Below are positions 9,377 to 27,349 of a stretch of DNA of 64,000 nt, in pieces. Below the pieces are notes generated by a model. That model saw only the letters and a list, made by a program, of their open reading frames with translations. It searched no databases and was not told the origin of the DNA. The position numbers and the translations under genes are program-made. The stretch is from contig NZ_NJIF01000008.1 in assembly GCF_002209555.1 (NCBI RefSeq), forward strand, positions 124,001-188,000, in the 5' to 3' direction. Position 1 is the stretch's first letter, and every line of letters begins with the position of its first letter. Source of the stretch: Achromobacter insolitus (lineage in GTDB: Bacteria; Pseudomonadota; Gammaproteobacteria; Burkholderiales; Burkholderiaceae_B).

Positions 9377-11527
9377 TCAAGCAGCGGCAGCGGGGGAATC
9401 GACGTGGCGGATCGAGCCGGGCACGACCTGGCCGCCGAAATCGGCAACCAGTGCCTGCACGAAAGGATCGACGGCGACAGCGTCCTCGGCGGCCTGTTGG
9501 CGAGCCGCGCGTTCGGCCTGGGCCACGGCATGCGCCGTCGCCTCGCCCGTTGCGCCGACCTCGACGTCCAGCCGTATGCCTTGGCCGAAATGTTCGCACA
9601 GCACCGTCTGCAGACGGACGCGGCTTTCGCTTTCCGCCAAGGTTTTGACGGCGACGCGCAGGACGATGGCATCGCCCTGCACGCCGGCCCATTCGCTTTG
9701 GCGCGCCAGTTCGGCCGCCAGGCCGGTGACCGGCAGGCGCGCGGCCAACTCAGGCCAGGTGTCGGAGGTCATGTCCGCCATGCGGGCGCGCGACTGCCGC
9801 TTGCGCGCGGACGGAGGGCCTTCGCGGCGAGCCGGGGCCGTGGGCGGCGGCGCAGCCGAAGGCGAGCTGGCCAGGGTTTCAAAACCATCGTCGTCGGGAT
9901 CCGACGTGAAGCCGCTGTCGGGCGAGTAACCGCCTTCTGCTTCGAACGGGATTTCTTCGTCGACCCAGGCAGGCGGACCATCTGCGTCGTCGGCCTGGGG
10001 CGCAGGCGCGATAGCGGCGGCGGTAGCCGGCGTGACCGCCAGCGCCGCAGTGCCGGCAGCCTTGCCGGCGTCGGCCTCGGGAGCCGCGGGCGGCGCGGCG
10101 GGCAGATCTTCCCAGGGAGGCACGCTACCGCCCTGGACGGTCTGCGGGGCCGCGGCGTCCGGTTCAGATGCTGCGGAGACGACATCCGGCACAGGCGCCT
10201 GCTCGGGGGTGATCACGGGCGCGGCGGGGGCCTCGGCCGGCGCGGGCGCCTGCGCCGCAGGGGCCGGGGCCGGCGCAGCGGCCGCTGGCGCTGCCGGTGT
10301 TGCGGCAACCACGGGGGCAACAGCGGCCGGCGGGACGGGTGCGGACGCAGGCGCCGCCGCCGTGACCGGCGCGGATGCCGCAGCCGCATCGGCGGTCTGG
10401 CGGGCGGGCGCGGCGGGCGCTTCCACCGCGGTCTGCGGACCGGCTTCGCCATTGAGCGCCAGCATGCGCAGACAGGCCATGATGAAGCCCGCGTACTCGT
10501 CGGGCGCCAGGGTCAATTCGCTGCGGCTATGCACCGCCACGGAATAGAAAAGCTGCACGGCGTCGGGATGCAGCGCCTGTGCCAGCCGGGCGATGTCGCC
10601 GGCAAGAGGATCCTCGGCGGGCGTCACGCCGCGCACGCGCTGCTCGATGGCCACGCGCGACAGCAGCACCGCCAGGTCGGCCAGCGCGCCAGCGTAGGAC
10701 AGACCGCGGATCGCCAATTCGTCCGCGACCGCGAGCACGCCCTTGGCATCGCCCGTGGACAGCGCGTCTAGCAGGCGCACCAGATGGCGCTGGTCGATCG
10801 TGCCGAGCATGCCGCGCACGGCATCCTCGGTCAGGTTGCCGGCGCTATAGGCGATGGCCTGATCGGTCAGCGACAGCGCATCGCGCATGGAGCCTGCGGC
10901 CGCCTGCCCGATCAGCCGCAGGGCGGGCACTTCGAATCCCACCGATTCCTGGCCGAGCACGGCCTGCAGGTGCCCGACGATGGAGTCGGCCGGCATCTGC
11001 TTCAGGTTGAACTGCAGGCAGCGCGACAGCACCGTCACCGGGATCTTCTGCGGATCGGTGGTCGCCAGTATGAATTTGACGTGGGGCGGCGGCTCTTCCA
11101 GCGTCTTGAGCATGGCGTTGAACGCATGCCCGGTCAGCATGTGGACTTCGTCGATCATGTAGACCTTGAAGCGTCCGGCGCCCGGCGCGTACACCGCCTG
11201 CTCCAGTAGCTGCGTCATTTCCTCGACGCCGCGGTTCGAGGCCGCGTCAAGCTCGAGGTAATCGACGAAGCGCCCGGAATCGATTTCCGTGCAGGCGCGG
11301 CACACCCCGCAAGGCTTGGAAGTGATGCCTGTTTCGCAGTTGAGCGACTTGGCCAGGATGCGCGAAAGCGTGGTCTTGCCCACGCCCCGGGTCCCGGTGA
11401 ACAGCCAGGCGTGGTGCAGGCGTTGGGTGTCGAGCGCATGCGTCAGCGCGCGCACCACGTGATCCTGTCCCACGAGGGTATCGAACGATCGCGGCCGCCA
11501 CTTGCGGGCCAGTACCAGATAAGTCAT
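9377..11527 (-). CDS. dnaX: DNA polymerase III subunit tau/gamma
   Basis: This 716-residue clamp-loader ATPase begins MTYLVLARKWRPRSF. The Walker A GTRGVGKTT lies at about residues 45-53, a four-cysteine zinc module follows near residue 66 (CETGITSKPCGVCRAC), then DEVHMLTGHAFNAMLKTLEE. A very long Ala/Pro-rich linker (about residues 365-560) leads to the C-terminal tau domain that contacts the polymerase. I did not see an obvious A-rich slippery heptamer for a programmed frameshift, so whether gamma is made here is open. The upstream in-frame extension of 27 codons is rejected because homologues start at MTYLVLARK. ybaB and recR follow. Confidence 0.96.
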   Translation of the reverse strand: MTYLVLARKWRPRSFDTLVGQDHVVRALTHALDTQRLHHAWLFTGTRGVGKTTLSRILAKSLNCETGITSKPCGVCRACTEIDSGRFVDYLELDAASNRGVEEMTQLLEQAVYAPGAGRFKVYMIDEVHMLTGHAFNAMLKTLEEPPPHVKFILATTDPQKIPVTVLSRCLQFNLKQMPADSIVGHLQAVLGQESVGFEVPALRLIGQAAAGSMRDALSLTDQAIAYSAGNLTEDAVRGMLGTIDQRHLVRLLDALSTGDAKGVLAVADELAIRGLSYAGALADLAVLLSRVAIEQRVRGVTPAEDPLAGDIARLAQALHPDAVQLFYSVAVHSRSELTLAPDEYAGFIMACLRMLALNGEAGPQTAVEAPAAPARQTADAAAASAPVTAAAPASAPVPPAAVAPVVAATPAAPAAAAPAPAPAAQAPAPAEAPAAPVITPEQAPVPDVVSAASEPDAAAPQTVQGGSVPPWEDLPAAPPAAPEADAGKAAGTAALAVTPATAAAIAPAPQADDADGPPAWVDEEIPFEAEGGYSPDSGFTSDPDDDGFETLASSPSAAPPPTAPARREGPPSARKRQSRARMADMTSDTWPELAARLPVTGLAAELARQSEWAGVQGDAIVLRVAVKTLAESESRVRLQTVLCEHFGQGIRLDVEVGATGEATAHAVAQAERAARQQAAEDAVAVDPFVQALVADFGGQVVPGSIRHVDSPAAAA

Positions 11528-11634
11528 GGGTGGATTGTAGAGCCTGTTTCGCAAGCTGGCCCGAAATGGCCTGTCCAGCTTCCGGGGTTCGGCGCGGGAA
11601 CAGGGCATTCATGCTCCGCGCGGCCTGAAACACA

Positions 11635-12062: not shown

Positions 12063-12425
12063 TTATTGGGGGGAGGCGGGAGCCAGGACGTAGAGTTTGC
12101 GGACTGGGGTGTGGATGTGCCAGATGCCTTCGGTGTTGGGGGACATGGCCAGGGTGTCGCCTGCCTGGAAGGGCTGTGGGGCTTGGCCGTCGGGGGTGAA
12201 GGTGCCGGAGCCGGCGAGGATGTGCATGATTTCGCCTTCCTTGACCTGGCGGCGGAATTGGCCGGGAGTGCATTCCCAGATGCCCGCGCTGGTGGCTTCC
12301 GCGCCCGGGATCACGATTTTTCTGGCGCGTAGCGCGCAGGCGGGTTCGCTGAGCGGGATGCCGACCGGGCCGAGGTCGTCCAGAGGCGTGGTCTCGCGGG
12401 TCTGGGGGATATGCTGGATCGTCAT
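12063..12425 (-). CDS. Small cupin-domain protein
   Basis: This 120-residue single-domain cupin reads SAGIWECTPGQFRRQVKEGE then MHILAGSGTFTPDGQ and FQAGDTLAMSPNTEGIWHI, the two cupin motifs of the DUF861-like group; Glu and His residues are in metal-ligand positions. The ATG chosen begins MTIQHIPQT. It is the last gene of the long operon with the dimethylformamidase-like enzyme, 28 bp after the FAD oxidoreductase stop. Cupins of this kind often sit beside gamma-glutamylputrescine-oxidase-like genes. The reaction is not known. Confidence 0.85.
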   Translation of the reverse strand: MTIQHIPQTRETTPLDDLGPVGIPLSEPACALRARKIVIPGAEATSAGIWECTPGQFRRQVKEGEIMHILAGSGTFTPDGQAPQPFQAGDTLAMSPNTEGIWHIHTPVRKLYVLAPASPQ

Positions 12426-12453
12426 GGGGTTCTCCGGGGCGTGAAGCAGGCGT

Positions 12454-13740
12454 CTACGAAAACTTGTCGCACAGGCCGTAATAGGCCACGCCCAGCGCAA
12501 TGTAGAAGCGCTTGAGGCCATGGAACGGCAGCGGCGTGATCGGGGTCACGGGGTATGGCATGGGCTCGCCCTGGGCAATGCTGCGGGCCAGGCAGCGGCC
12601 CATCTGCGTCGCCAAGGCGACGCCGCGGCCGTTATAGCCCAGCAGGATATGCAGGTTGGGCGAAGGCTGATGGACATGCGGCACGAAATCGCGCGTCAGG
12701 GCAATACGGCCGGCCCAACGGTAGGTGAACGGAATCCGGGCAAGTTCCGGAAACAGCATGCGCGCCCCGCGCACCAGGTGGTCCCAGTCCTGCTCTGCGA
12801 CGGGGTCGGCGAAATGGCCGCGACCTCCCAATACGAAACGGCCCTCGTGATCGCGGCGGAAGTACAGCAGCAGACGGCGGGAGTCGGATGCCACCACGCC
12901 CCCAGGCATGATGTGGCCGTATGCCTGCGCATCCAGCGGGCCCGTGGCGACGATAAAGCTGTTGGCGGCGATGACACTGCGCTGCAAGCCTGGCCACAGG
13001 CCGTTGGTATAGCCGTTGGTGGCGATCAGCGCATGTTCGGCCTTGACCGTGGCGCCCTGCTGCGTGCGGGCCAGCCATTGCTGGCCCGAGCGTTCCAACG
13101 CCGTGACGCAGCTATGTCCATGCACCGACGCTCCCGCGGCTTGCGCCGCCGCCAGCAACCCCCGCGTGTAGCTCAGCGGCTGAATGCTGCCGGCGCGCCG
13201 GTCTATCCAGCCTCCCAGGAAGCGGTCCGTTCCCAGGCGCGCGCTGACCGCATCCCGCTCCAGGATTTCCACTGGCGCCCCGCGCTCCAGCCACTGCCGG
13301 GCACGGTCCGACACCGTCTCCAGGGCCCGCAGCGAATGGGCGGGCTGTATCCAGCCGGCGCGCGTCGCATGGCAGGAGATTCCATGCTTGTCGATCAGTT
13401 CGAACACCGTGTCGGCCGCCGCCCCCACCATGCGCAGCAGAGGTTCACCCAGCTCTTTCCCATAGCGAGCCAGGATTGCGCGCGGATCGTGCTTGATACC
13501 GGGGATGACCTGCCCGCCATTGCGGCCGGACGCGCCCCAACCCGGGTCCTGGGCGTCGAGCACGCAGACGCGCAAGCCCGATTCGCTAAGGTGCAGGGCT
13601 GCCGACAGACCGGTGATGCCGGCGCCGACAATGACGACATCGCATTGGACGGAACCGGCCAGGACAGGCCCGGCAGGCGCCTGCCCCGCGGTCTGCTGCC
13701 ACAAGGATTGCCGGGCATCGCCCGAGTCTGGTGCGCGCAT
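12454..13740 (-). CDS. FAD-dependent oxidoreductase, DAO/PuuB-like amine oxidase
   Basis: This 428-residue protein has the Rossmann dinucleotide-binding motif VVIVGAGITGLSAALHLSESG at about residues 35-55 (G39, G41, G44) and the second FAD element GASGRNGGQVIPGIKHD that characterises gamma-glutamylputrescine oxidase-like enzymes. A C-terminal GYNGRGVALATQMGR closes the FAD site. Such enzymes oxidise secondary or primary amines to an aldehyde or imine with release of hydrogen peroxide. It starts 8 bp after the dimethylformamidase-like large subunit. It could oxidise the amine freed by that hydrolase; this is inferred from the operon only. Confidence 0.88.
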   Translation of the reverse strand: MRAPDSGDARQSLWQQTAGQAPAGPVLAGSVQCDVVIVGAGITGLSAALHLSESGLRVCVLDAQDPGWGASGRNGGQVIPGIKHDPRAILARYGKELGEPLLRMVGAAADTVFELIDKHGISCHATRAGWIQPAHSLRALETVSDRARQWLERGAPVEILERDAVSARLGTDRFLGGWIDRRAGSIQPLSYTRGLLAAAQAAGASVHGHSCVTALERSGQQWLARTQQGATVKAEHALIATNGYTNGLWPGLQRSVIAANSFIVATGPLDAQAYGHIMPGGVVASDSRRLLLYFRRDHEGRFVLGGRGHFADPVAEQDWDHLVRGARMLFPELARIPFTYRWAGRIALTRDFVPHVHQPSPNLHILLGYNGRGVALATQMGRCLARSIAQGEPMPYPVTPITPLPFHGLKRFYIALGVAYYGLCDKFS

Positions 13741-13748
13741 GGTGTGTA

Positions 13749-15989
13749 TCAGCGTCCGCTTGCCTGGGGAAACACGAAAGGAGTCGCGTCGGCGAAACGG
13801 CTCAGCACGTTCGCCGTGATACGCGACACGTTGTTGTCATAGCCGTTCCAGGCCAGCGAAGCGCCCCAGGTAATCGAACCCGTGGAGAAAACAGCGCCGC
13901 CGTTCAGGCATTCGTAGAACACCAGGTCCGCGTAGCAGTGCTTGGCCTCTTCGCCGTTGATGGTGGGATGGTGATAGGTGGTTTCCTCTGGCACGACGTT
14001 GTAGTAGCGCGTGTGCTTTTCCGAGCGGGCCACGATCAGCGTATGCGGCGGCGTACCCAGGCGGAAATCGACGCGGTCGATCTCGTCGCCTGCGGCGCCG
14101 CCTCCACTGCTGCCAAAATCGCCGATGATTTCATCCTCCACCCCTGCGAACATGAACGCCACGCGCGGGTCGTGGCTTTCAGGCCGCCGGCGGTAATAGG
14201 AGGACGCGTCGAACCCGGTCGCGGTCGTGCCGATGCCGGTCAGCGTCTGCGGCGCAATCCCGATGCGGCGCCAGGTGCCACCGTACTCGCCGGTGTAGCT
14301 GTGATAGCTTTCGCCGGCCGGCGTCTCGCTGTAGCGCGCGCCCGTCTCGGTGCGGCGCAATTCCATCAACCAGGGCTTTTCGGGGTGATAGGCGCAGCGC
14401 CAATAGAAGCCGTTGCCTCCCATGTACATAAGGCGGCCTCCCAGCCCCTGGTACGCCACCATGGCCTGCCACATGCGCGTGGTCCAGTACTCGGGGTGCG
14501 CACCGGTCATGACCACCTTGTAGCCTTCCAGGGCCTGCAGCCCTTCGGCGTGCAGCATATCGTCCGTAATGACGTCGTAGTCGTAGCCCTTTTCGTCCAG
14601 CCAGTCCAGGAAGTGCGTATCGCCGTTCAGCGACCAGGTGCGGCATTGCAGATGCATGCTGAAGACCGGACGCAGGCGCGAGGCGTAGTAGACGCCATAG
14701 CCGTCGGAATGGGTGTCGTACATGGACAGGCCCAGTTCGCGGTGCTCGCCCAGGTAGGTCTCCCAGGGATACAGGACCATGAAGTTGCCCGACTTCATTT
14801 CCATGCCTTCTTCGTCCAGGCGGTAGTGGGAATTCGAATACGCCATGTACGTGGCCGTGGATGCAAGGAACGCGATGCGCTTGCGCGGGCCGCCCGGTTT
14901 CGGCCGCACGATGAAGGTGATGCGTTCCTGCTCACCTCTCGCACCGGTCAGGCGCGCTGCGTACAGGCCGCTGGGCAGGTCCTCCGGCACGGTCAGGCTG
15001 AAGTCGGTTTCCCAGCGCGCGTCCTCCAGCGTGTCGTCATGGAAGTGCAGCGCGGCGAAATGGTCGGGACGTTCGCGCCAGAACATGACGCTGGAATCCC
15101 AGCGCAGCCCGGGCACGCCGCGGGCGGGCAGGTTCTCGATACGCCCCTCGGACCAAGGCCTCGCCGTGTCGACAATCACATCGGTGTCGATGCGCCGCGA
15201 GAAATCCCACGCAACCAGGGGCGGAGCAGCAAGGCGGCGCGCCTGCGGTTCCACCCGTAACTGGGCCAGGTCGGCGTCCGCGGCGCCATAGGGCAGCAGC
15301 GTGGGCGAATCGAGCCGGCCGTTGTAGTGCCTGGCGTACTGCGGAAACCGCTTGCCGGTGGCGGCCGCCCCCATCGTCAGCGCAAGGCCCGCCAACGCAA
15401 CCGGATCCACGGACGCCAGCCGGCCGCTGGCCTGGGCGTGAGAATCCACGGCCAGCAAGGGATTGGCCGGAATCTGGCGCAGCGCGACAGTCCCCGCGTC
15501 CAGGTCCATGTTCACCGCCACCAGATACCACTGCCTCGCGGTCATGGGCAATCCGAGCGTGAGACGCTCGCTCTTGCCGCCGCTGCCCTGCTCCCAAAAC
15601 AGGCAACCTTCGCGGTCCAGGCCCAGCAGGTAGCCTATGCGCGCCGCCTCGTCCCAGCGCGACAGGATCACCTGATCCCCACCGTTGCAGAGCAAGGTCG
15701 GCATCACCGCCAGGATCCAGCTCTTGCTGCCGGCGGCAGGCTCGCTGAATGCCGGCGCCACCGCGCGCGAACCGGTTTCGGTGCCTTGCGGACGTCCCGC
15801 GATGCCGGTGGCGATGCCAGGCAACACCACGGTTTCCTTCAGGCCGGGCGCGCCCGGCGATACGTCGCCGCTGCGGATGCGCACCAAGTCCGCGTCATAG
15901 CGCAGCGCCTGCGCGCAGCTGACTTTGAATTCTATGGTTTCGCCGGGCGCGACCGTCCAGGTGCTGGGGTATCCCAGGATCTCGTACAT
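13749..15989 (-). CDS. N,N-dimethylformamidase-like large subunit
   Basis: This 746-residue protein is close in length to the large chain of bacterial N,N-dimethylformamidase (about 760). The N-terminal half (about 1-330) contains a LamG/concanavalin-like region around residues 90-215. The C-terminal half from about 365 is the catalytic, glutamine-amidotransferase-like domain. The known enzyme binds one iron through two Tyr and one Glu; candidates here are Y381 or Y384 (TATYMAYSNSHYR), Y424 (SMYDTHSDGYG) and E500 (TGAHPEYWT), with spacings close to those of the characterised enzyme. The small subunit lies 49 bp upstream. Substrate unknown: an N-substituted amide is the natural guess. Confidence 0.88.
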   Translation of the reverse strand: MYEILGYPSTWTVAPGETIEFKVSCAQALRYDADLVRIRSGDVSPGAPGLKETVVLPGIATGIAGRPQGTETGSRAVAPAFSEPAAGSKSWILAVMPTLLCNGGDQVILSRWDEAARIGYLLGLDREGCLFWEQGSGGKSERLTLGLPMTARQWYLVAVNMDLDAGTVALRQIPANPLLAVDSHAQASGRLASVDPVALAGLALTMGAAATGKRFPQYARHYNGRLDSPTLLPYGAADADLAQLRVEPQARRLAAPPLVAWDFSRRIDTDVIVDTARPWSEGRIENLPARGVPGLRWDSSVMFWRERPDHFAALHFHDDTLEDARWETDFSLTVPEDLPSGLYAARLTGARGEQERITFIVRPKPGGPRKRIAFLASTATYMAYSNSHYRLDEEGMEMKSGNFMVLYPWETYLGEHRELGLSMYDTHSDGYGVYYASRLRPVFSMHLQCRTWSLNGDTHFLDWLDEKGYDYDVITDDMLHAEGLQALEGYKVVMTGAHPEYWTTRMWQAMVAYQGLGGRLMYMGGNGFYWRCAYHPEKPWLMELRRTETGARYSETPAGESYHSYTGEYGGTWRRIGIAPQTLTGIGTTATGFDASSYYRRRPESHDPRVAFMFAGVEDEIIGDFGSSGGGAAGDEIDRVDFRLGTPPHTLIVARSEKHTRYYNVVPEETTYHHPTINGEEAKHCYADLVFYECLNGGAVFSTGSITWGASLAWNGYDNNVSRITANVLSRFADATPFVFPQASGR

Positions 15990-16038
15990 ACAGGCTCCGT
16001 CAAAGGGTATCGGGCAACACGGTGTGGGGGGCCAGCGT

Positions 16039-16347
16039 TCAGTCCAGGTCGGACGGCCAGGGATAGGGGGAATGGATGGCCCAGCGAATCTTCAGCAGCG
16101 CCCATTGCGCGTCGGCCAGCTTGGCGTAGCGCTGCGGCGCCAGTTCCACCGGATCGCCACGCCCCTCCCCCAGCCGGCCAATGGCGTATTCCGAGTAAGG
16201 CTTGGTGCACACGATGACCTGCTTGCCGGCCATGGGCTCCATCCGCAAGCGATTGAGCAGCCGGTTCAGCTTCAGTGGCCGATTCTTGGTGGTAGTGGTC
16301 CTGAAGTGCTTGAGCAACTCCGCATCTTCGGGCTGGATCTCGTACAT
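16039..16347 (-). CDS. N,N-dimethylformamidase-like small subunit
   Basis: This 102-residue protein is mostly helical and rich in basic residues (LKLNRLLNRLRMEPMAGKQV). Its middle reads VICTKPYSEYAIGRLGEGRG and its end DAQWALLKIRWAIH, a pattern like the alpha chain of dimethylformamidase, which wraps the large chain. It is somewhat shorter than the characterised 130-residue chain. It precedes the large-subunit gene by 49 bp on the same strand. Without an alignment the assignment rests on this position, size and partial pattern. Confidence 0.75.
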   Translation of the reverse strand: MYEIQPEDAELLKHFRTTTTKNRPLKLNRLLNRLRMEPMAGKQVIVCTKPYSEYAIGRLGEGRGDPVELAPQRYAKLADAQWALLKIRWAIHSPYPWPSDLD

Positions 16348-16373
16348 ATTGCGCTCCGGGCATGAAAGAGGGT

Positions 16374-17165
16374 TCAGTGGTCGCGTTCAGGCGCGGCGAA
16401 CATTTCGAGTCCGACCGTGCGTTCCAGCAACAGCACCAGGGCAAGCGTGAAGACGATCAGCGACGTGGCGATGGCGGCGATCACGGGGCTGGCGCTTTCC
16501 TGTATCTGCGTGAGGATGCGCACAGGCAAGGTATTGACGTCGGGCGCAACCAGAAAGACGGTGATCGTTGCTTCGTCGAACGACACGATGAAACAGAACA
16601 GGAAGGCGGTGATGAGGCCGGGCTTGAGCATGGGCAAAGTCACGGTGCGCAGGACCTGCGCGGGCCGCGCTCCCAGGCTCATGCTGGCCTCGCCCAGCGC
16701 GGGGTCCAGCTTGCGCAGCGAATTCAAGATGGGGCGGTACGCAAACGGCAGCGTGATGATGCAATGCGCGAGCACAATGCCCAGGTATGAACCGCTGACG
16801 CCCAGCAACCCGAGCAGGCCCAGGAAAGCCACACCCAGCGCCGCGTTGGGAAACACCAGCGGCAGCATGATCAGGGATTCGATGACACCGCTGCCCCTGA
16901 TGCGGCTCCGGTCCAGCACCAGCGCGGCCAGCAGGGCTGCCGACGTGCTGATGAACGCCACCAGCAGGGCGATGCCGGCGCTGACCGCCAGCAACCCCAG
17001 CCATTGCGCGTCGGTAAAAAACTCCAGATACCAGCGCCAGGAAAGCGATGCCAGCGGCACAGTGAAGTAGCCGGTGGACGTGAACGACGATACCGCCACA
17101 ATCAGGATGGGCAATGGCAGAAAGCCGAACAGCAATACCAGCAGCAAACGGTAGAGCCAGCGCAT
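16374..17165 (-). CDS. ABC transporter permease, PotC/spermidine-putrescine type
   Basis: This 263-residue inner-membrane permease has about six membrane segments and an EAA coupling loop reading LGEASMSLGARPAQVLRTVT. The N-terminus MRWLYRLLLVLLFGFLPLPI is a membrane anchor. The ATG is one base after the stop of the preceding permease; a longer in-frame version starting 45 bp upstream would overlap it and is less likely. Together with the neighbouring permease, binding protein and ATPase it forms one importer of the polyamine/opine/phosphonate family. The dimethylformamidase-like genes follow after 26 bp. Confidence 0.92.
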   Translation of the reverse strand: MRWLYRLLLVLLFGFLPLPILIVAVSSFTSTGYFTVPLASLSWRWYLEFFTDAQWLGLLAVSAGIALLVAFISTSAALLAALVLDRSRIRGSGVIESLIMLPLVFPNAALGVAFLGLLGLLGVSGSYLGIVLAHCIITLPFAYRPILNSLRKLDPALGEASMSLGARPAQVLRTVTLPMLKPGLITAFLFCFIVSFDEATITVFLVAPDVNTLPVRILTQIQESASPVIAAIATSLIVFTLALVLLLERTVGLEMFAAPERDH

Positions 17166-17166
17166 A

Positions 17167-18003
17167 TCAAGCTCCCATTCCGGACACCCGCGCGGCGACG
17201 CGGCGTTCAAGCCATTGCAAGGGGATGACCAGCGAGAACGCCGCGAACAGCAGGACGATCGCCATGCTGGCGGCCTTCGGATAGTCGAAGACCTGCAGCA
17301 CGTCCTGATAGATCTGCGTCGCCAACATTCCGTCGCGCACGCCGCCCAGCAGGAGCGGCGTCACGATGGCGCCGGTCGACAGCAGATAGACCAGCATGGC
17401 ACCGGTAATGACACCCGGCAGGCTCAAGGGCAAGGTGACGTACAGGAAAGTCTTGATCGGGCCGGCAGACAGTGTCTGCGACGCCTCGTCCAGGGCGCGG
17501 TCCAGATGCAGCAGAACCGCCAGCACGGACACGATGAAGAACGGGCTGAAGACATGCACCAGACCGATCACGACGCCGGTCATGTTGAATATGAGGCGCA
17601 TGGGCGCATCGATCACGCCCAGCGACAACAACAGCGAGTTCAGCGTGCCCTTGGGTCCCAGGATCACCAGCCAGCCGTAGGTGCGCACCACCACGCTGAC
17701 CAGCCATGGCGTGATCACCAGCATCATCAGGAAATTCCGGTTGCCCCGGTAACGCGAGATCGCATAGGCGATGGGATAGCCGACCAGCACGGAAACCAGC
17801 GTCACGACCAGCGCGATCCCGATCGTGCGCAACAGCACCGCGACATAGTCGGCGCGCTCGAAGAAGCTGGTGAAATTTCCCAGGCCGAAGCCGTCCCCGG
17901 TGCGCAGCGATTCGACGACGAGATAAGCGATCCCCGTGACGAACATGAGGATCAGGATCGCCGGAGGAAGCAGCAGTATCAGCGGCGGCCTGGTGGATTT
18001 CAT
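17167..18003 (-). CDS. ABC transporter permease, PotB/spermidine-putrescine type
   Basis: This 278-residue permease has an N-terminal anchor PPLILLLPPAILILMFVTG, about six membrane segments and an EAA loop LDEASQTLSAGPIKTFLYVT. A GGAGA ribosome site precedes the ATG. It lies 16 bp after the binding-protein gene and 1 bp before the second permease, as in potABCD-type operons. Confidence 0.92.
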   Translation of the reverse strand: MKSTRPPLILLLPPAILILMFVTGIAYLVVESLRTGDGFGLGNFTSFFERADYVAVLLRTIGIALVVTLVSVLVGYPIAYAISRYRGNRNFLMMLVITPWLVSVVVRTYGWLVILGPKGTLNSLLLSLGVIDAPMRLIFNMTGVVIGLVHVFSPFFIVSVLAVLLHLDRALDEASQTLSAGPIKTFLYVTLPLSLPGVITGAMLVYLLSTGAIVTPLLLGGVRDGMLATQIYQDVLQVFDYPKAASMAIVLLFAAFSLVIPLQWLERRVAARVSGMGA

Positions 18004-18019
18004 CGCGGCGTCTCCCGGC

Positions 18020-19066
18020 TTAGCGGCCGGCGCCCGCCATGGCGCGCTCGACCAGCTCGATGCGCGACTTGCGGGATTCGGCGATGTAGTTCCAGTCCGG
18101 CTGGTAGAGCTGGTCGCGCAGGGCGTTCAAGGGTTGGCCCAGTTCCTTTTCAGTCGCAGGCGACAGCTTGGCCGTGCTGTTGAGCGGCAGATAGCCGGCG
18201 ATGTCGGCAATGCGCGACTGCCCTTCCGGCTGGGCGACGTAATTGAGCCACTTCAGGTAGCTGGCCCGGCCTTGCGCCTTCTTCGGCACGACCACGAGAT
18301 AGGGCAGGATCAGCGCGCCCTCCTTCGGAATGACCATCTCGATGTTGTTCTGCCCGTCGCGCTTCATCTGCCACACGCGGGTCGAGTAATAGGGCGCGGC
18401 CGTGACTTCTCCACGTTGCAGCAGTTGGTTCATCTGCGCCATCGAGCTATACATCGCAAGCGAGTTCTTGCCCAGCGCGGTCAGCAAGGCCAGGCCCTTG
18501 GCGGTATCGCGCTCGTTGCCCCCCTCGGCCACGGACATGATCGTCAGATCGTAGGCCGAGCTGTATACCGGACGGGTAACGGACAGCTTGCCCGCCCACT
18601 TGGGGTCGCCCAACGCCTTCCAGGACGAGAAATCGGAGGGCTTCGCCAGGTCCTTGTTCACCGCGATGCCGTAATAGGCGAAGTAGGTGCTGACGCCGAT
18701 CAGGCGTCCGCCGGGCGTCTTCAGCAGGTATTTCTCCGGCACGTTCTTTAACGCCGGCACCTCGTTCATGTCGAAGTCTTCAAGCAGGCCATCGCTGTAC
18801 ATTTGCGCGGCCTCGAAGAATGACGACAGCGCCGCATTGAATTTGGGAGCGTCCTTCTGCGCGCGCACCTGGGCTTCGGGCGTTGGCACTTCGACGATTT
18901 TCACGCCGATCCCGGTTTCCTTGGTAAAGGGTTCGGCATAAGCCTCGCGCCAGGCCGCACCGACGCCTCCGCCCCACGTGGCCATGGTGATGTCCTGCGC
19001 GCCGGCTGTGCCGCAAACGGCCATGAACGCGGCGACGGTCCAATTGGCGAATCGATGTGTGCTCAT
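18020..19066 (-). CDS. Periplasmic substrate-binding protein, PotD-like
   Basis: This 348-residue protein has a Sec signal (MSTHRFANWTVAAFMAVCGT, cleavage after AGA) and a mature start DITMATWGGGVGAAWREAYA, the usual opening of spermidine/putrescine-type binding proteins. The start was set at the Met that begins the signal peptide; an extension upstream would add residues before a clear signal sequence. It follows the ATPase gene by 28 bp. The acidic residues that grip polyamine amines in PotD could not be confirmed by eye, so the ligand may differ, for example a substituted amide. Confidence 0.9.
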   Translation of the reverse strand: MSTHRFANWTVAAFMAVCGTAGAQDITMATWGGGVGAAWREAYAEPFTKETGIGVKIVEVPTPEAQVRAQKDAPKFNAALSSFFEAAQMYSDGLLEDFDMNEVPALKNVPEKYLLKTPGGRLIGVSTYFAYYGIAVNKDLAKPSDFSSWKALGDPKWAGKLSVTRPVYSSAYDLTIMSVAEGGNERDTAKGLALLTALGKNSLAMYSSMAQMNQLLQRGEVTAAPYYSTRVWQMKRDGQNNIEMVIPKEGALILPYLVVVPKKAQGRASYLKWLNYVAQPEGQSRIADIAGYLPLNSTAKLSPATEKELGQPLNALRDQLYQPDWNYIAESRKSRIELVERAMAGAGR

Positions 19067-19094
19067 TGTGCGACTCCAGTGAGAGAGAACAGCG

Positions 19095-20174
19095 CTAGAG
19101 GGATACAACCGAAATGCGGCTGTCGTCCCAGGTCAGTCCGACGGTTTCGCCCTGCCCTGGCAAGGGCAGCCCAGCCTGCGCCGGCCAATCGGCGATCAGG
19201 GTCCGGGCGCCGGCCCGCAGCCAGACACGGGTGTTCTGCCCGGCATAGACGCGGCGCTCCACACGGGCTTGCAGGCGCGCACTGCCGGCAGGCGCCAGCT
19301 TCAGGTGCTGCGGCCGTAGCGATACGCCCACGGCGCTGCCCGCGCTAAAACGCGTGCCCGGCAAATCGAATCCGCAACCGAGTTCCGCGCAATCCAGGCG
19401 GGTCGCGCCGGCCTGCACCACTCCTTCGAAGAAATTCGTGTCCCCCACGAACTCCGCAACAAAGCGGGTCTGAGGGTTTTCGTAGATGGTGGCGGGATCG
19501 CTGACCTGGTCGATCAGGCCGTTGCGGAACACGGCGACGCGATCGGACATGGTCAGCGCCTCTTCCTGATCGTGCGTCACGAAGATAAAGGTAGTACCCA
19601 GCTTTTCCTGGATCAGCTTCAGCTCGGTCTGCATCTGGCGCCGGATCTTCATGTCCAGCGCGCCTAGCGGCTCGTCCAGCAGCAGCACCCGGGGTTCCAT
19701 GACGATGGCGCGCGCCAGCGCCACGCGCTGCTTTTGCCCGCCCGAAATCTGGCCGATGTAGCGCGCCCCATAACCTTCCAGGCCGACCATCGCCAGCGAT
19801 CGCTCCACCTTGCCGCGGATGCCGGCGGACGTTTCGCGCCGCATCCGCAAGCCGTAGCCGATGTTCTCGGCAACGGTGAGGTGCGGGAACAGAGCCAGGT
19901 TCTGGAACACCATGCCCAGCGGGCGGCGGTACGGGGGCGCTGACAGGATCGACTGTCCGTCTATCTTCACCTCGCCGGAAGTGGGCGTTTCAAAGCCCGC
20001 GATGATCCGGATGAGCGTGGTCTTGCCGCAGCCGCTGGGCCCCAACAAGGTCAGAAACTCTCCTTCGCGCACATCCAGGCTGACACCTTTCAATGCCGCC
20101 GATGCGCCGAACGTCTTCGTGACGTTCTGGATCTGGAGGATCGGCGTTCCCGCTGTTTTCTGGCCCTGCCCCAT
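19095..20174 (-). CDS. ABC transporter ATP-binding protein, PotA type
   Basis: This 359-residue ATPase has Walker A GPSGCGKTT (about residues 45-53), signature [15 protein letters not shown], Walker B VLLLDEPLGALD and the switch His in FVTHDQEEALTMSD. A C-terminal TOBE-like regulatory domain starts near residue 240. I chose the ATG preceded by GGAG at 9 bp over a TTG six codons upstream. It is the first gene of the minus-strand operon that runs through the importer, the dimethylformamidase-like enzyme, the oxidoreductase and the cupin. Confidence 0.93.
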   Translation of the reverse strand: MGQGQKTAGTPILQIQNVTKTFGASAALKGVSLDVREGEFLTLLGPSGCGKTTLIRIIAGFETPTSGEVKIDGQSILSAPPYRRPLGMVFQNLALFPHLTVAENIGYGLRMRRETSAGIRGKVERSLAMVGLEGYGARYIGQISGGQKQRVALARAIVMEPRVLLLDEPLGALDMKIRRQMQTELKLIQEKLGTTFIFVTHDQEEALTMSDRVAVFRNGLIDQVSDPATIYENPQTRFVAEFVGDTNFFEGVVQAGATRLDCAELGCGFDLPGTRFSAGSAVGVSLRPQHLKLAPAGSARLQARVERRVYAGQNTRVWLRAGARTLIADWPAQAGLPLPGQGETVGLTWDDSRISVVSL

Positions 20175-20247
20175 GCTCACACACTCCGGCAAAACAGATG
20201 AATGAGCGCAGGATATTGGAGCTAATATGCTTTGGGCAATAGTAAAA

Positions 20248-20304
20248 TCCCGTACTGAGGTTTATTATTATCGCTAGGCGGTAATTGACACTCAAAATAC
20301 GGGA
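20248..20304. promoter_or_regulatory. Divergent promoter region with TCCCGTA/TACGGGA inverted half-sites
   Basis: TCCCGTA at 20248-20254 and TACGGGA at 20298-20304 are exact inverted 7-mers in the 146-bp region between the importer operon and the IclR gene. The region is markedly more AT-rich than its surroundings. The second half-site ends 16 bp before the regulator ATG, so binding there would repress the regulator gene. Confidence 0.45.
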
Positions 20305-20320
20305 AAACGAGGAGCCAAAA

Positions 20321-21115
20321 ATGCTGGAACAGGCCGAATTGGATGTCGACGATGGCATGTTCAATCACTCGTTCGCGAGAGGGCTGAAGGTCCTCTTCGC
20401 GTTTCGCGGCGCGCAAAGCGCAATGTCGCTGTCGGAAGTGGCGCAAGCCGTGGGCACAAGCGTCAGCACGGCCCAGCGCACGGTGTACACGCTTGAAAAG
20501 CTGGGCCTTATCAGCAAATCGCCCAAGACGCGGAAATTCAGTCCCACGCTGCGCGTGCTGGAGCTGGGCTACAACTACATCGCTGCCGATCCCCTGGTCG
20601 AAGCTGCCAACCCCTTCCTGGCCGAGCTGTCCAATATCACCGGGGAAACCGTCAACCTGACCGAACCCCTGGACCACGAGATGGTGTATGTATCCCGCGT
20701 GGTGGCGGCAAAGTTCATCCCCATCCACATGCCCATCGGCAGCCGCATCCCGATGTACTGCACGGCCAGCGGCCGCGCCTATCTGGGCGCACTGCCTGAC
20801 GAACAGGCGCAGGCCATCCTGGATGCCTCCGCGCTGCAGCGCCATACGCAATGGACCGAAACGGATCCGGTAAAGCTGATGGAGATCGTCCGGCAGGCGC
20901 GGCGCGAAGGCATCGCCCACAACAAGGAAGAACTGTTCCTGGGCGATATGACGATTGCCGCGCCCATCATGAGCCAGCGCGGCACGCCCGTTGCGGCCGT
21001 GCACATCGTGGCGCCGACCAGCCGTTGGACCCTGGAAGAGGCGTTGGCACGCCTGGGACCGCTGGTGTTCGATTGCGCACGAGGCATCAACAACTCGGTG
21101 CGCTCGTTCACCTGA
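20321..21115 (+). CDS. IclR-family transcriptional regulator
   Basis: This 264-residue protein has an N-terminal winged helix (residues about 12-75: GLKVLFAFRGAQSAMSLSEV, then VSTAQRTVYTLEKLGLI) and a C-terminal GAF-like IclR effector domain with IGSRIPMYCTASGRAYLGAL. The ATG with GAGGAG about 7 bp upstream is preferred over one 12 codons earlier. It is divergent from the importer/dimethylformamidase-like operon and is its most likely local regulator. The effector is presumably the substrate or a breakdown product. Confidence 0.92.
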   Translation: MLEQAELDVDDGMFNHSFARGLKVLFAFRGAQSAMSLSEVAQAVGTSVSTAQRTVYTLEKLGLISKSPKTRKFSPTLRVLELGYNYIAADPLVEAANPFLAELSNITGETVNLTEPLDHEMVYVSRVVAAKFIPIHMPIGSRIPMYCTASGRAYLGALPDEQAQAILDASALQRHTQWTETDPVKLMEIVRQARREGIAHNKEELFLGDMTIAAPIMSQRGTPVAAVHIVAPTSRWTLEEALARLGPLVFDCARGINNSVRSFT

Positions 21116-21139: not shown

Positions 21140-24100
21140 CTACAGGTCGATCCAGGCGCGAGCCCGCGGGAAGTACAGCGCAGCCCGCGCGGCGCGGCCA
21201 TCCAATGCCGTGACCTGCGCGCAGTAGCGCAGCAGCTGGTCGCCGTGCCGTTGCCGCATGCGCGCGGCGAAGGCTGCCGGTGACTCGCCTGGATGCGGCC
21301 GGCCGGTCTTGTAGTCGACGATGAGCCAGCCGTCCTCGGTGCTGAGCGCGAGATCGATCACGGACACTTTGCCCGCGGCGTCGATCAGGGGCCATTCACG
21401 GCGCGCGCCGGATTGCGACAACAGCCACAGGCCGCGTTCGTCGGCCAAGGTCGCTTGCAAGGTTTCCAGCACGGCTTCGGAGGCCGCGTCCGCCTGGCTG
21501 GCGGGTATGCCTGCGCGCGTCAATTGACGGCGCATGGCGGGCAGACGCTGGGCCAGCGCATCCGCGGACCAGGCCTGCACGCCGTCCTGGCCGATGCGCG
21601 CCAGCCACGCGTGCGACAAGGTGCCGATGGCCGCGTCGTAACCGGCTTCGAGTTGCCAGGCGGGATGTTCGCCGCCCTCGCCCCAGACGCCGCGCGCCGC
21701 GGCGCCAAAGCCCGGGCTGACCGCCACGTCCGCCAAGCGCGCCAGCTGCGCCAGGCCATCGCGGTCCACGCGCCGCAATGGCTCGCCCTGCCATTCGGGG
21801 CCGTCTTCCGCTTGCGCAATGGCTACGCCATCCAGCGGCGGCGGGACTGGCACGGTCAGGCAAGGCCACAGGCGTCCCAGCAGGCTGGAGGACGACGGCG
21901 TCTTGGCCTGGCCGCTGGCCTCGTCCACCGATACGTGGCCCACCAGATGCAGGCGCTTGCGCGCCCGCGTTGCCGCCACGTACAGCAGACGGTCGATTTC
22001 ATATGACGCGCGGCGCGCTTCGCGCGCCCCCAGGTAGCGCGACAAGGGATCCGCCTCGGTCTCGGCGCGCGGCTTGACCGGACCGAACAACACGCGGCCG
22101 CCGCTCTGTTCAAAGCGCACCAGCGGCGCCTGGTCGCCGCGCGGCGCGCGGTGCAGGCCGTAAAGAATGACCGTTTCGAATTGCAGGCCTTTGGACTTGT
22201 GCATGGTCATGATCTCGACCGCGCCCGCGTCTTCGTCCGCCGCGTCCGGCGCGGCGAACAGGCGCGCGATGCCCGCATCCAGCGCCGCCACGTCGATGGC
22301 GCCGTGCGGCGCCAGGCGCTCGACCAGCTGGAACAGGCTTTCCGCGTCGTTGGCGACGGACAGGCCGGCGTATAGCGCCGGGCCGCCCAATCGGCGCCAT
22401 AGCGATTCCACCCAGGCCGCGAATGGCATGGCGCCCGAGGCATTGCGCTTGTCGAGCAAAATTTCCGCCACCTGGCGCAGGCGCTCGAATTCATCCGCGC
22501 CCAGCACGCTCTGCGCAGATGGCGCTTCGGGCGATTCGGGCGCCGCGTCGAACAAGGACCCCTGCGGCGCGCTGGTGACTGTTGGCGGCGCGGCCTGCGA
22601 CGAAGTCTGCGGCGGGATGCGCAGCGCGCGCTCCAGCAGCACCGGCACCGGCGTGATGTGATCGTCGCCGAAAAGGCGCTGCAAAGAGGTCAGCGTCAAG
22701 CCGCAATACGGCGCGCGCAGCACAGAGAGCCAGGCCAGGCGGTCGCCCGGGTGCGACAGGGCGCGCACCAATTGCACCAGATCGGCCACCACGGGCCTGA
22801 GCGCCAGCGGCACCAGGTCCACCGCGCGGCAGCGTATTCCTTCCTGGGCCAGCCTCCGGGTCAGGTTGCCCAGGTGGCTGCGAGCCCGCACCAGCACGGC
22901 GACGGGATGCTTGGCGCCTTTGTGATCGATCAGGGCCTGGCGCACCAGTTCCACCGCGATATCTTCGGCCTGGGTTTCGGCGGGGGCCGCGCCCTCGCGC
23001 GACCATGCCGGATGGAAACGCACTGCCGGTTCCGGCAGCGCTTCGTGAAAGGCAGTGGACGGACTGTAGGCAATCGCCCCCGCCGCCGCATCGCTGCGCC
23101 GCGGCAGCAGTTGCGCAAACGATTGGTTCACCCATTCGACGATGCCCGCCTGCGAACGGAAATTGTCGGTGAGGTTAAGGAAATCCGGCTGCAGTTCGCC
23201 CACGCCTATGTCCGCGACCTCCAGGAAGAGGCCCACTTCCGCCTTGCGGAAGCGGTAGATGGACTGCATCGGGTCGCCCACCAGGAACAGGCTGCGACCA
23301 TCGCCCTGCTGCCAGCCCGAGGTGAGCGTGCGCAGCAGGTCCAACTGGGTCTGGCTGGTGTCCTGGAATTCGTCGATAAGCAGATGGCGGATCGAGGCGT
23401 CCAGCTTCAGCAGCAGTTCGCCCGGATCGTCGGCGCTGCCGAGCGCGGCCGCCGCGCGTTGCGCGATCTCGATGAAATCCACCTCGCCGGTGTCGGCAAA
23501 ACGCAGCCGCAATTGCGCCACCGCCAACGCCAAGGTCATGAGCTGCGCGCCCAGCACTTCCCATTGGGCATCAGTGAAATGCGGCATGGGCACGTCGCGC
23601 ACCGCATGCAGGCGCCGCACCCAGGCCGCGTCGGGGTCGGCGGATTCCAACCAAGCCACGAACGGTTCTTTGTGCGCGCACTTGGGCGGGAAGCCCAGGT
23701 TTTTGTTGACGGTCTTGCGCAGGGTACCCGTGCCGGTCAGCAGCAGATGCGCGACGGCTTGCCATTGATCAAGCGCGTCGGCGTCCGGCGGCAGTTCTTC
23801 GGTCCAGTCCAGCAAAGCCAGCAGCTTGTTTTCGCCTTCGCCATCCTGCAGGCTCGTGGCGGCCAGCCGCGCCGGGCCACAGAGCGCCTCGGCCCAGCCA
23901 TAAGGCATCGCTTCGCAAAGCGCATCAAGGTCTTCCCCGATGGCCTCGGCCAGCATGGCTTCCATGCCTGCCCTGTCGGATCCGTGACGCAGCAGCGGCA
24001 GCCATTGGTCGCGCTGCCCCAGCATGCTGGCGATGGCCTCCTTGGCCGCCTGCACGTCCACGTCCAGGTGCTTGAGCAAGATGCGCACGGCTTCGTAGTC

Positions 24101-24595
24101 GTCGGCGAGATCCAGGGTGGCGCGCGCGGCGGCCTCGTAATGGGCGCGCGCATCGTCGGTGATCTCGGGCATGCCGCCCAGTTCCGACAGCCACGGCATG
24201 CTGCGCACCAAACCCGCGCAGAAAGAGTCGATGGTGCGTATCGCCAGCCGCGCGGGATGATCCAGCAGATGCCAGCCCTGCGCTTCGTTGCGCGCCAGCG
24301 CGGCGCGGGCCAGATCCCAGCTGCGGCGCTCGTGCATGGCTTCGGGCGGCGCGTCCAGTCCGCGGCGCAATTTGCTCAGCACGCGCGCATGCATTTCGGA
24401 AGCAGCCTTGCGCGTGAAAGTGATAGCGACGATTTCTTCCGGACGGTTCACTGTCGCCAGCAGCGCCAGGATACGGTCCGTGAGCAGCTCGGTCTTGCCG
24501 GAGCCCGCAGGCGCCTGCACCAGGAACGAGCGCGTCGGATCCAGCGCGTCGGCGCGCGCCACGTGGTCGTGCGGCAAGCGTTCTTGTTCAGCCAT
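21140..24595 (-). CDS. addA: Double-strand break repair helicase-nuclease AddA
   Basis: This 1151-residue UvrD-type helicase has Walker A APAGSGKTELL (about residues 28-38), Walker B LLIDEFQDTSQTQ, motif III GDPMQSIYRFRKAEV, motif V MTMHKSKGLQFETVILYGL and a C-terminal RecB-like nuclease with VIDLALSTEDGWLIVDYKTG. It pairs with AddB to resect double-strand ends up to a Chi-type site for RecA loading. It lies 3 bp after addB on the same strand. The length suits the AddA family in proteobacteria. Confidence 0.95.
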   Translation of the reverse strand: MAEQERLPHDHVARADALDPTRSFLVQAPAGSGKTELLTDRILALLATVNRPEEIVAITFTRKAASEMHARVLSKLRRGLDAPPEAMHERRSWDLARAALARNEAQGWHLLDHPARLAIRTIDSFCAGLVRSMPWLSELGGMPEITDDARAHYEAAARATLDLADDYEAVRILLKHLDVDVQAAKEAIASMLGQRDQWLPLLRHGSDRAGMEAMLAEAIGEDLDALCEAMPYGWAEALCGPARLAATSLQDGEGENKLLALLDWTEELPPDADALDQWQAVAHLLLTGTGTLRKTVNKNLGFPPKCAHKEPFVAWLESADPDAAWVRRLHAVRDVPMPHFTDAQWEVLGAQLMTLALAVAQLRLRFADTGEVDFIEIAQRAAAALGSADDPGELLLKLDASIRHLLIDEFQDTSQTQLDLLRTLTSGWQQGDGRSLFLVGDPMQSIYRFRKAEVGLFLEVADIGVGELQPDFLNLTDNFRSQAGIVEWVNQSFAQLLPRRSDAAAGAIAYSPSTAFHEALPEPAVRFHPAWSREGAAPAETQAEDIAVELVRQALIDHKGAKHPVAVLVRARSHLGNLTRRLAQEGIRCRAVDLVPLALRPVVADLVQLVRALSHPGDRLAWLSVLRAPYCGLTLTSLQRLFGDDHITPVPVLLERALRIPPQTSSQAAPPTVTSAPQGSLFDAAPESPEAPSAQSVLGADEFERLRQVAEILLDKRNASGAMPFAAWVESLWRRLGGPALYAGLSVANDAESLFQLVERLAPHGAIDVAALDAGIARLFAAPDAADEDAGAVEIMTMHKSKGLQFETVILYGLHRAPRGDQAPLVRFEQSGGRVLFGPVKPRAETEADPLSRYLGAREARRASYEIDRLLYVAATRARKRLHLVGHVSVDEASGQAKTPSSSSLLGRLWPCLTVPVPPPLDGVAIAQAEDGPEWQGEPLRRVDRDGLAQLARLADVAVSPGFGAAARGVWGEGGEHPAWQLEAGYDAAIGTLSHAWLARIGQDGVQAWSADALAQRLPAMRRQLTRAGIPASQADAASEAVLETLQATLADERGLWLLSQSGARREWPLIDAAGKVSVIDLALSTEDGWLIVDYKTGRPHPGESPAAFAARMRQRHGDQLLRYCAQVTALDGRAARAALYFPRARAWIDL

Positions 24596-24598
24596 GGC

Positions 24599-27262: not shown

Positions 27263-27349
27263 GGGCACCCGGAGCGCCGCGGAGTAGCGGCGCGGAATGA
27301 TGGAAGAAATACCGCCGTAGGATACCGCGAGGCAGATCGGAAAATGCGC

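Follow-up and report, generated by a model that had tools for sequence, protein, structure and literature searches.

A conserved Achromobacter operon that combines a dimethylformamidase-like two-subunit hydrolase with a Pot-like importer, an FAD enzyme and a cupin

The stretch of DNA considered here, hereafter the window, comprises 64,000 nucleotides of an Achromobacter insolitus contig (NZ_NJIF01000008.1), and our subject is an operon within it that joins the genes of a two-subunit hydrolase resembling N,N-dimethylformamidase (DMFase) to those of an ATP-binding cassette (ABC) importer. Eight co-directional minus-strand genes span positions 12063-20192 and encode, in this order, the importer ATPase, the binding protein, two permeases, the small and large hydrolase subunits, a flavin adenine dinucleotide (FAD) oxidoreductase, and a cupin. 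They are divergent from a plus-strand gene for an IclR-family regulator (20285-21115, Pfam IclR_C/HTH_IclR, likely start ATG at 20321), and the region between the two (20193-20284) is presumed, from its position alone, to hold the promoter and operator. With the likely start codons, including an ATG at 12425 for the cupin, the gaps between the genes measure 28 (cupin-FAD), 8, 49, 26, 1, 16, and 28 bp, and the layout is the one that an earlier note on this DNA had claimed. Pfam backs every gene assignment (Cupin_3, DAO, DMFA2_C, two BPD_transp_1, SBP_bac_8, ABC_tran with TOBE_2, and IclR) except that of the small subunit, which matches no Pfam family. The full operon is found in three species of the genus, namely in the window and in two further loci (L035 and L036), with 82-98% protein identity, and its presence in two species besides the window's shows that the arrangement is not due to chance. 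Thus, the operon is real and conserved, and its parts are known. Their combination was not found described in the literature searched, outside which most subscription journals lie, in keeping with the earlier note, which knew of no system of this composition. The host genome (28 contigs, 6.4 Mb) contains one DMFA2_C gene, and an orthologous binding protein is present in 3 of the 43 genomes of the genus, the window's genome counted.

The large, catalytic subunit (13749-15989, minus strand, 746 amino acids) belongs to the DMFase-like amidohydrolase superfamily, its DMFA2_C domain (PF20254) scoring 293 bits against a Pfam cut-off of 27. It is 95% identical to its counterpart in A. anxifer LMG 26857, and over nearly its full length phmmer matches it to the Paracoccus DMFase (DmfA1/DmfA2; 6lvb_A, E-value 1.7e-131) and to N-acetyl-(R)-beta-phenylalanine acylase (8huy_A, E 4.7e-122), with BLAST identities of about 36% to each; no paper describing the acylase was found in the literature searched. 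By sequence alignment, Y384 (codon at 14838-14840, minus strand) and Y424 (14718-14720, minus strand) correspond to the iron ligands Y399 and Y440 of DMFase, and H498-P499-E500 (14490-14498, minus strand) contains the equivalents of the catalytic His H519 and of the iron-ligand Glu E521, the roles of the DMFase residues being those given in the excerpted text of PMC7686228. The Tyr/Tyr/Glu site that the earlier note had proposed is therefore matched in Y384, Y424, and E500, while its other candidate, Y381, is a neighbour and not a ligand. The four residues Y384, Y424, H498, and E500 are invariant in all 119 family representatives, which were obtained from 130 large subunits by collapsing those at least 90% identical, and are likewise shared with the acylase. 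The metal would be iron, judging by this residue match, and the same excerpts report the iron site of DMFase to be unique.

Two further positions were compared. N526 aligns with N547 of DMFase and is Asn in 113 of the 119 representatives and Asp in the other 6. Five residues beyond it lies R531 (codon at 14397-14399, minus strand), which is Arg or Lys in 96 of the 119; it is Arg in the acylase as well and Ile in DMFase, and our guess is that it could contact a carboxylate on the substrate. In two loci, the small-large pair is followed directly by the gene of another, short DMFA2_C protein, some 567 amino acids long (L058:12276-13982 and L114:10572-12275), and in two others (L188 and L189) there are several large-subunit open reading frames each.

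The small subunit (16039-16347, minus strand) is 102 amino acids long, compared with 132 in DMFase, and as a single query it matches the DMFase small subunit at just E 0.71. A profile built from 13 such proteins, none of them from a DMFase, nevertheless finds 6lvb_B at E 5.9e-7, with the runner-up at 0.17, and the best PDB match of the predicted fold is again 6lvb_B (E 8e-4, template modelling score, TM, 0.68). An iterated profile finds small subunits at 37 places in 57 loci, including DmfA1 of P. aminophilus. Thus, as in DMFase, a homologous small subunit is encoded beside the large one and in the same gene order, and the two DMFase-like subunits of the earlier note are confirmed. According to the excerpts of PMC7686228, the large subunit of DMFase is inactive without the small one. 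Across the wider family, a small subunit was seen upstream in 61 of the 119 representatives. In three loci (L029, L030, and L031), one small subunit is followed by three tandem large-subunit genes from different branches of the tree.

The importer genes are, in order, those of a PotA-like ATPase (19095-20192, Pfam ABC_tran and TOBE_2), a periplasmic binding protein of the PotD/PotF superfamily (18020-19066, SBP_bac_8, with a PotD-type protein as best PDB match at E 6e-15), and two BPD_transp_1 permeases, one PotB/PotH-like (17167-18003) and one PotC/PotI-like (16374-17165), all on the minus strand. The earlier note called this a polyamine-type importer, which is correct as to the Pot family. 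We take the amine-holding residues of PotD to be D168, E171, and D257, and in an alignment to PotD the acids at these positions are absent from the binding proteins of both the window and a Roseomonas plasmid discussed below, so that the polyamine part of the label is not supported. The importer is probably Pot-like by family with a substrate other than polyamines. A binding-protein search in 61 genomes of the family mainly shows that distant Pot-type proteins are common.

The FAD-dependent oxidoreductase (12454-13740, minus strand, 428 amino acids, Pfam DAO at 233 bits) had been described as PuuB-like, a name that we would abandon: its best-scoring named relative is AmaA, an L-pipecolate oxidase, at 337 bits, below the NCBIfam cut-off of 600. 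In common with the Puu pathway of E. coli, the operon has an FAD oxidase of the DAO family, but the enzyme is only 30% identical to PuuB and the operon contains no Puu neighbours, the Pfam scan finding in it neither a gamma-glutamyl ligase nor an aldehyde dehydrogenase. The last gene encodes a small Cupin_3 (EutQ-like) protein (12063-12425, minus strand, PF05899 at 70 bits), whose relatives on plasmids are less than 50% identical to it.

Outside the genus, one locus among those opened carries the importer, both subunits, and the FAD enzyme together, namely plasmid p1318-6 of Roseomonas marmotae, and the recurrence of these genes with the hydrolase, which the earlier note had named as a check, is in that respect borne out. 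On this plasmid, the order is ATPase, two permeases, binding protein, small subunit, large subunit, the FAD gene running the other way and a cupin being absent; identity to the window proteins is 47% for the large and 44% for the small subunit, 41% for the FAD enzyme, 38% for the binding protein, and 48-49% for the ATPase and permeases. The Roseomonas FAD enzyme likewise scores AmaA best (337 bits, below the cut-off of 600). The cupin does not recur in this way, being seen with the hydrolase only within the genus among the loci examined, save for one weak neighbour in L184. Large-subunit homologues, with partial matches counted, occur in four overlapping samples of genomes, namely in 22 of 268 from the family, 15 of 399 from the order, 23 of 398 from the phylum, and 72 of 385 from the class to which genome G807 belongs; the loci taken from the last sample were chosen mostly among its higher-scoring matches.

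A quick tree was built from 67 large subunits after the removal of three short fragments. In it, the window protein groups with the Roseomonas plasmid protein (Shimodaira-Hasegawa-like approximate likelihood ratio test, SH-aLRT, 99) and then with alphaproteobacterial paralogues (98), while DMFase and the acylase fall in other clades. We rejected membership of the beta-phenylalanine acylase clade, a group of 19 rows (support 100), as the window protein lies outside it and has a small subunit. In that clade, none of the 18 rows other than the PDB entry has a small subunit, nor have three actinobacterial rows outside it, and many of its rows, unlike the window, lie with Liv importers and class III aminotransferases. 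Liv importers and a class III aminotransferase are likewise the neighbours of homologues without a small subunit in the window's own family (L042-L052).

The association with importers extends beyond the Pot type. At least two same-strand importer parts of one type were found within 6 kb in 27 of the 61 two-subunit representatives (Pot in 12, Liv in 10, Dpp in 3, and Paat in 2), and in 18 of the 49 that remain once the window and 11 plasmid loci that supplied labels are dropped. In the control, based on 20 hand-picked round positions in related genomes, 1 of 40 random strand placements gave such a result. Candidate amine-consuming enzymes, counted as class III aminotransferases, D-amino-acid dehydrogenases, FAD oxidases, copper amine oxidases, and D-serine-dehydratase-like proteins, lie within 6 kb in 18 of the 61, in 9 of the 49, and in 1 of the 20 control regions. 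The excess over the control is modest, and no neighbours of the kinds counted were seen in many alphaproteobacterial relatives. Labels were assigned by BLAST to a set of 98 proteins, of which 89 belong to annotated plasmid loci and 9 to the window, and are coarse, so that an unlabelled neighbour may still be related; the open reading frame calls in these surveys are crude, and the 49-locus subset and the figure of 18 of 61 were counted by hand. One locus, L117, is counted as having no small subunit, since its gene, a fused one, ends 1249 bp away where the limit is 1200 bp; with it, the 61 two-subunit representatives become 62 and the 27 with an importer 28.

Relatives of the individual parts suggest where the operon came from. 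The FAD enzyme is 57-58% and the IclR regulator 54-59% identical to those of an operon found in Paraburkholderia, Caballeronia, and Variovorax (the latter two records unannotated and read by tblastn), and both are 51-52% identical to those of a similar operon in Pseudomonas oryzihabitans. All four of these closest FAD relatives (52-58%) have a divergent IclR gene (51-59%) and a polar-amino-acid importer; the Burkholderiales operon thus has the same divergent layout as the window, but its importer is of another type, and no DMFase-like gene was seen in the four loci. Of the other two FAD relatives (45-46%), the one in Variovorax SRS16 is accompanied by HyuA/HyuB and the one in Paroceanicella by an N-carbamoyl-D-amino-acid hydrolase. 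The importer, in turn, has its nearest relatives in Sulfitobacter and Pseudosulfitobacter (binding protein 46-49%, PotB/PotH-like permease 50-53%, PotC/PotI-like permease 49-50%, and the Sulfitobacter ATPase 48%), where the order is likewise ATPase, binding protein, permease, permease, FAD enzyme, and where DMFase-like genes are absent but an AMP-binding protein, an amidohydrolase, and an amidase are encoded divergently next to it. A further near relative, in Bradyrhizobium, adjoins 5-oxoprolinase genes, so that the three importer relatives opened besides that of Roseomonas (binding protein 43-49%) all adjoin other amide-splitting enzymes. These comparisons cover six loci opened for the FAD enzyme and three for the binding protein, all picked from the top or listed matches. 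By its sequence relationships, the operon is a mosaic of apparently separately sourced parts, and this mosaic is the strongest hint that we have about the order of the steps. Its simplest reading would be that an amino-acid-like import and oxidation unit gained an upstream step, in which the N-acylated form is imported and deacylated first.

Taking these observations together, we consider it probable that the operon serves the breakdown of an N-acylated amino acid or amine, which would be imported, deacylated, and oxidised by the FAD enzyme. The Pot-like importer would take up the intact amide, perhaps with the IclR regulator sensing either the substrate or a product. The hydrolase, a two-subunit mononuclear-iron enzyme of DMFase-like build, would cleave it into an acid and an amine-bearing product. 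The AmaA-like enzyme would oxidise this product, for which a secondary or cyclic amino acid is the likeliest candidate, to an imine for central metabolism, with the cupin in an accessory role. We infer the reaction and the order of its steps from gene association and residues, and the sequence of import, amide hydrolysis, and FAD oxidation put forward by the earlier note gains support from how the parts recombine in other loci. More tentatively, the substrate may be a secondary or cyclic amino acid that carries an N-acyl group, a possibility that we favour because the acids of PotD are missing from the binding protein and AmaA is the best-scoring relative of the FAD enzyme, even if we hold this narrower proposal to be open to considerable doubt.

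Several points weigh against an import, deacylation, and oxidation pathway. The tree program flags the joining of the window and Roseomonas proteins as one of two long branches, which may be false. No small subunit was seen upstream in 58 of the 119 representatives, so its absence is not confined to the acylase clade; some of the 58 are second or third tandem copies, lie on cut contigs, or are L117. By the rule given above, 34 of the 61 two-subunit representatives have no importer, or 31 of the 49 without the window and the label plasmids, and an FAD partner lies near a two-subunit homologue in just 2 of the 61, the window and Roseomonas. The FAD enzymes of Sulfitobacter and Pseudosulfitobacter are merely 31-32% identical to that of the window, from which it follows that the importer and the FAD enzyme do not travel as one unit, and the window's importer is nearer to those importers than to the Roseomonas one, with its 38% identical binding protein. 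The predicted model of the large subunit matches 6lvb best (Foldseek E 2e-56, TM 0.78) but is weak at the active site (mean predicted local distance difference test score 63.9, and below 50 for residues 383-453 and 526-577), and it adds nothing on the geometry of the site beyond the sequence. The Pfam scan also found no aldehyde dehydrogenase or other downstream enzyme within the operon. The long-branch warning, together with an importer that lies beside a DMFase-like pair in Aminobacter, slightly lowers our confidence in this pathway.

The family of the importer and the PotD match of its binding protein could also be taken to point to an N-acyl polyamine as the substrate, for example acetylputrescine, imported by a Pot system, deacetylated, and oxidised by a PuuB-like enzyme. 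A PuuR-like regulator gene lies beside the Roseomonas FAD gene, albeit at 47 bits where the cut-off is 211, and some other two-subunit homologues lie with glutamine-synthetase-like genes. Nevertheless, the equivalents of D168, E171, and D257 are non-acidic in both binding proteins, and on this ground we judged a polyamine substrate unlikely; the low identity to PuuB and the polar-amino-acid importers beside the closest FAD relatives point the same way, and we regard this explanation as improbable. About equally improbable, in our view, is that the hydrolase and the FAD enzyme act on different compounds and belong to a loose nitrogen-scavenging set under one regulator. The mosaic origin of the parts would suit such a set, as would the four opened loci that have the IclR/FAD pair but not this hydrolase and the 59 of the 61 two-subunit representatives in which no such FAD gene accompanies the hydrolase. 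The gaps of 1-49 bp, the occurrence of the operon in three species of the genus, and the Roseomonas association argue against it.

Homology of the large subunit to DMFase raises a further alternative, namely an operon for degrading xenobiotics such as N-alkyl formamides or a pesticide amide, to which we assign a slightly lower probability still. In its favour, AceAB, the acetamiprid amidase of Pigmentiphaga, is described in the excerpts of PMC11573777 as an amidase of two subunits that resembles DMFase and is inactive on N,N-dimethylformamide (DMF); we liken it to the window's enzyme by this description only. In addition, a plasmid of Aminobacter niigataensis DMFA1 (L064) has a DMFase-like pair beside a Liv importer, and thus the presence of an importer is no argument against DMF-like substrates. 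On the other hand, the window lies apart from DMFase in the quick tree, with Roseomonas and the alphaproteobacterial paralogues, R531 is replaced by Ile in DMFase, and the 10-kb stretch seen around the DMFase genes of pAMI2 has, unlike the window, a LuxR-type regulator and neither an importer nor an FAD gene. For DMF itself as the natural substrate, the separate clade, the Ile/Arg difference, and the importer-free pAMI2 stretch led us to a verdict of unlikely, even with the importer of the Aminobacter pair in mind.

Beyond the proposed deacylation pathway, a permease fusion ties the hydrolase to importers more closely in relatives near DMFase. Seven loci from three GTDB families encode the small subunit as the last ~100 residues of a LivM-type permease, and in all seven PF02653 and then the small-subunit domain lie within one open frame near a large-subunit gene (L115:10605-12254, L117:5206-6858, L125:10882-12549, L126:5405-6988, L128:8335-11607, L130:10890-12668, and L131:10854-12950). 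The fusion-bearing loci form a clade that joins DMFase in the large-subunit tree (SH-aLRT 97). The fusion is also carried by Agrobacterium and Rhizobium plasmids: among 28 matched records of public plasmids, 26 cover at least 80% of the fused protein, and in the 15 fusion records listed it is in one piece, annotated as a branched-chain amino acid permease in 14 and unannotated in one. For instance, on the Agrobacterium plasmid NZ_CP042276.1, the fusion gene (214805-216403) adjoins the large-subunit gene (212488-214737). We found no mention of such a fusion in the literature searched on dimethylformamidase. It could be that DMFase-type enzymes are in general coupled to import, the small subunit serving to dock the catalytic one at the inner mouth of an ABC importer. 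In the clade next to DMFase, the fusion at the C-terminus of the permease would make this docking permanent, while in the window the free small subunit would contact the Pot-type permease and the amide would be split on entry to the cell. We hold this general scheme to be speculative and rather unlikely.

As to the everyday role of the DMFase relatives, this operon and its relatives suggest that they deacylate imported amides ahead of an amine-consuming enzyme. The operon offers a small set of genes in which the substrate, the metal, and the partner enzyme could be tested together, and the fusion carried by Agrobacterium and Rhizobium plasmids allows a direct test of whether importer and hydrolase are physically linked. 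Annotations call for caution here, as the fused proteins are named plain permeases and a small subunit on a plasmid of the archaeon Halalkalicoccus (L060:9413-9955), in which no Pfam domain was found, is named an "inner-membrane translocator". At the latter locus, a divergent gene for a copper-type primary-amine oxidase adjoins the small subunit. According to the excerpts of PMC10308929, flotillin/rhodopsin clusters include an N,N-dimethylformamidase as well as an inner membrane translocator, and on the Aminobacter plasmid a flotillin-domain gene directly precedes the small subunit. As to the surroundings of the operon in the window, it sits between a DnaX-like gene at 9377-11608 and, at 21140-27268, adjoining genes for a UvrD-helicase/PD-(D/E)XK protein and a PD-(D/E)XK protein, which resemble a two-subunit helicase-nuclease.

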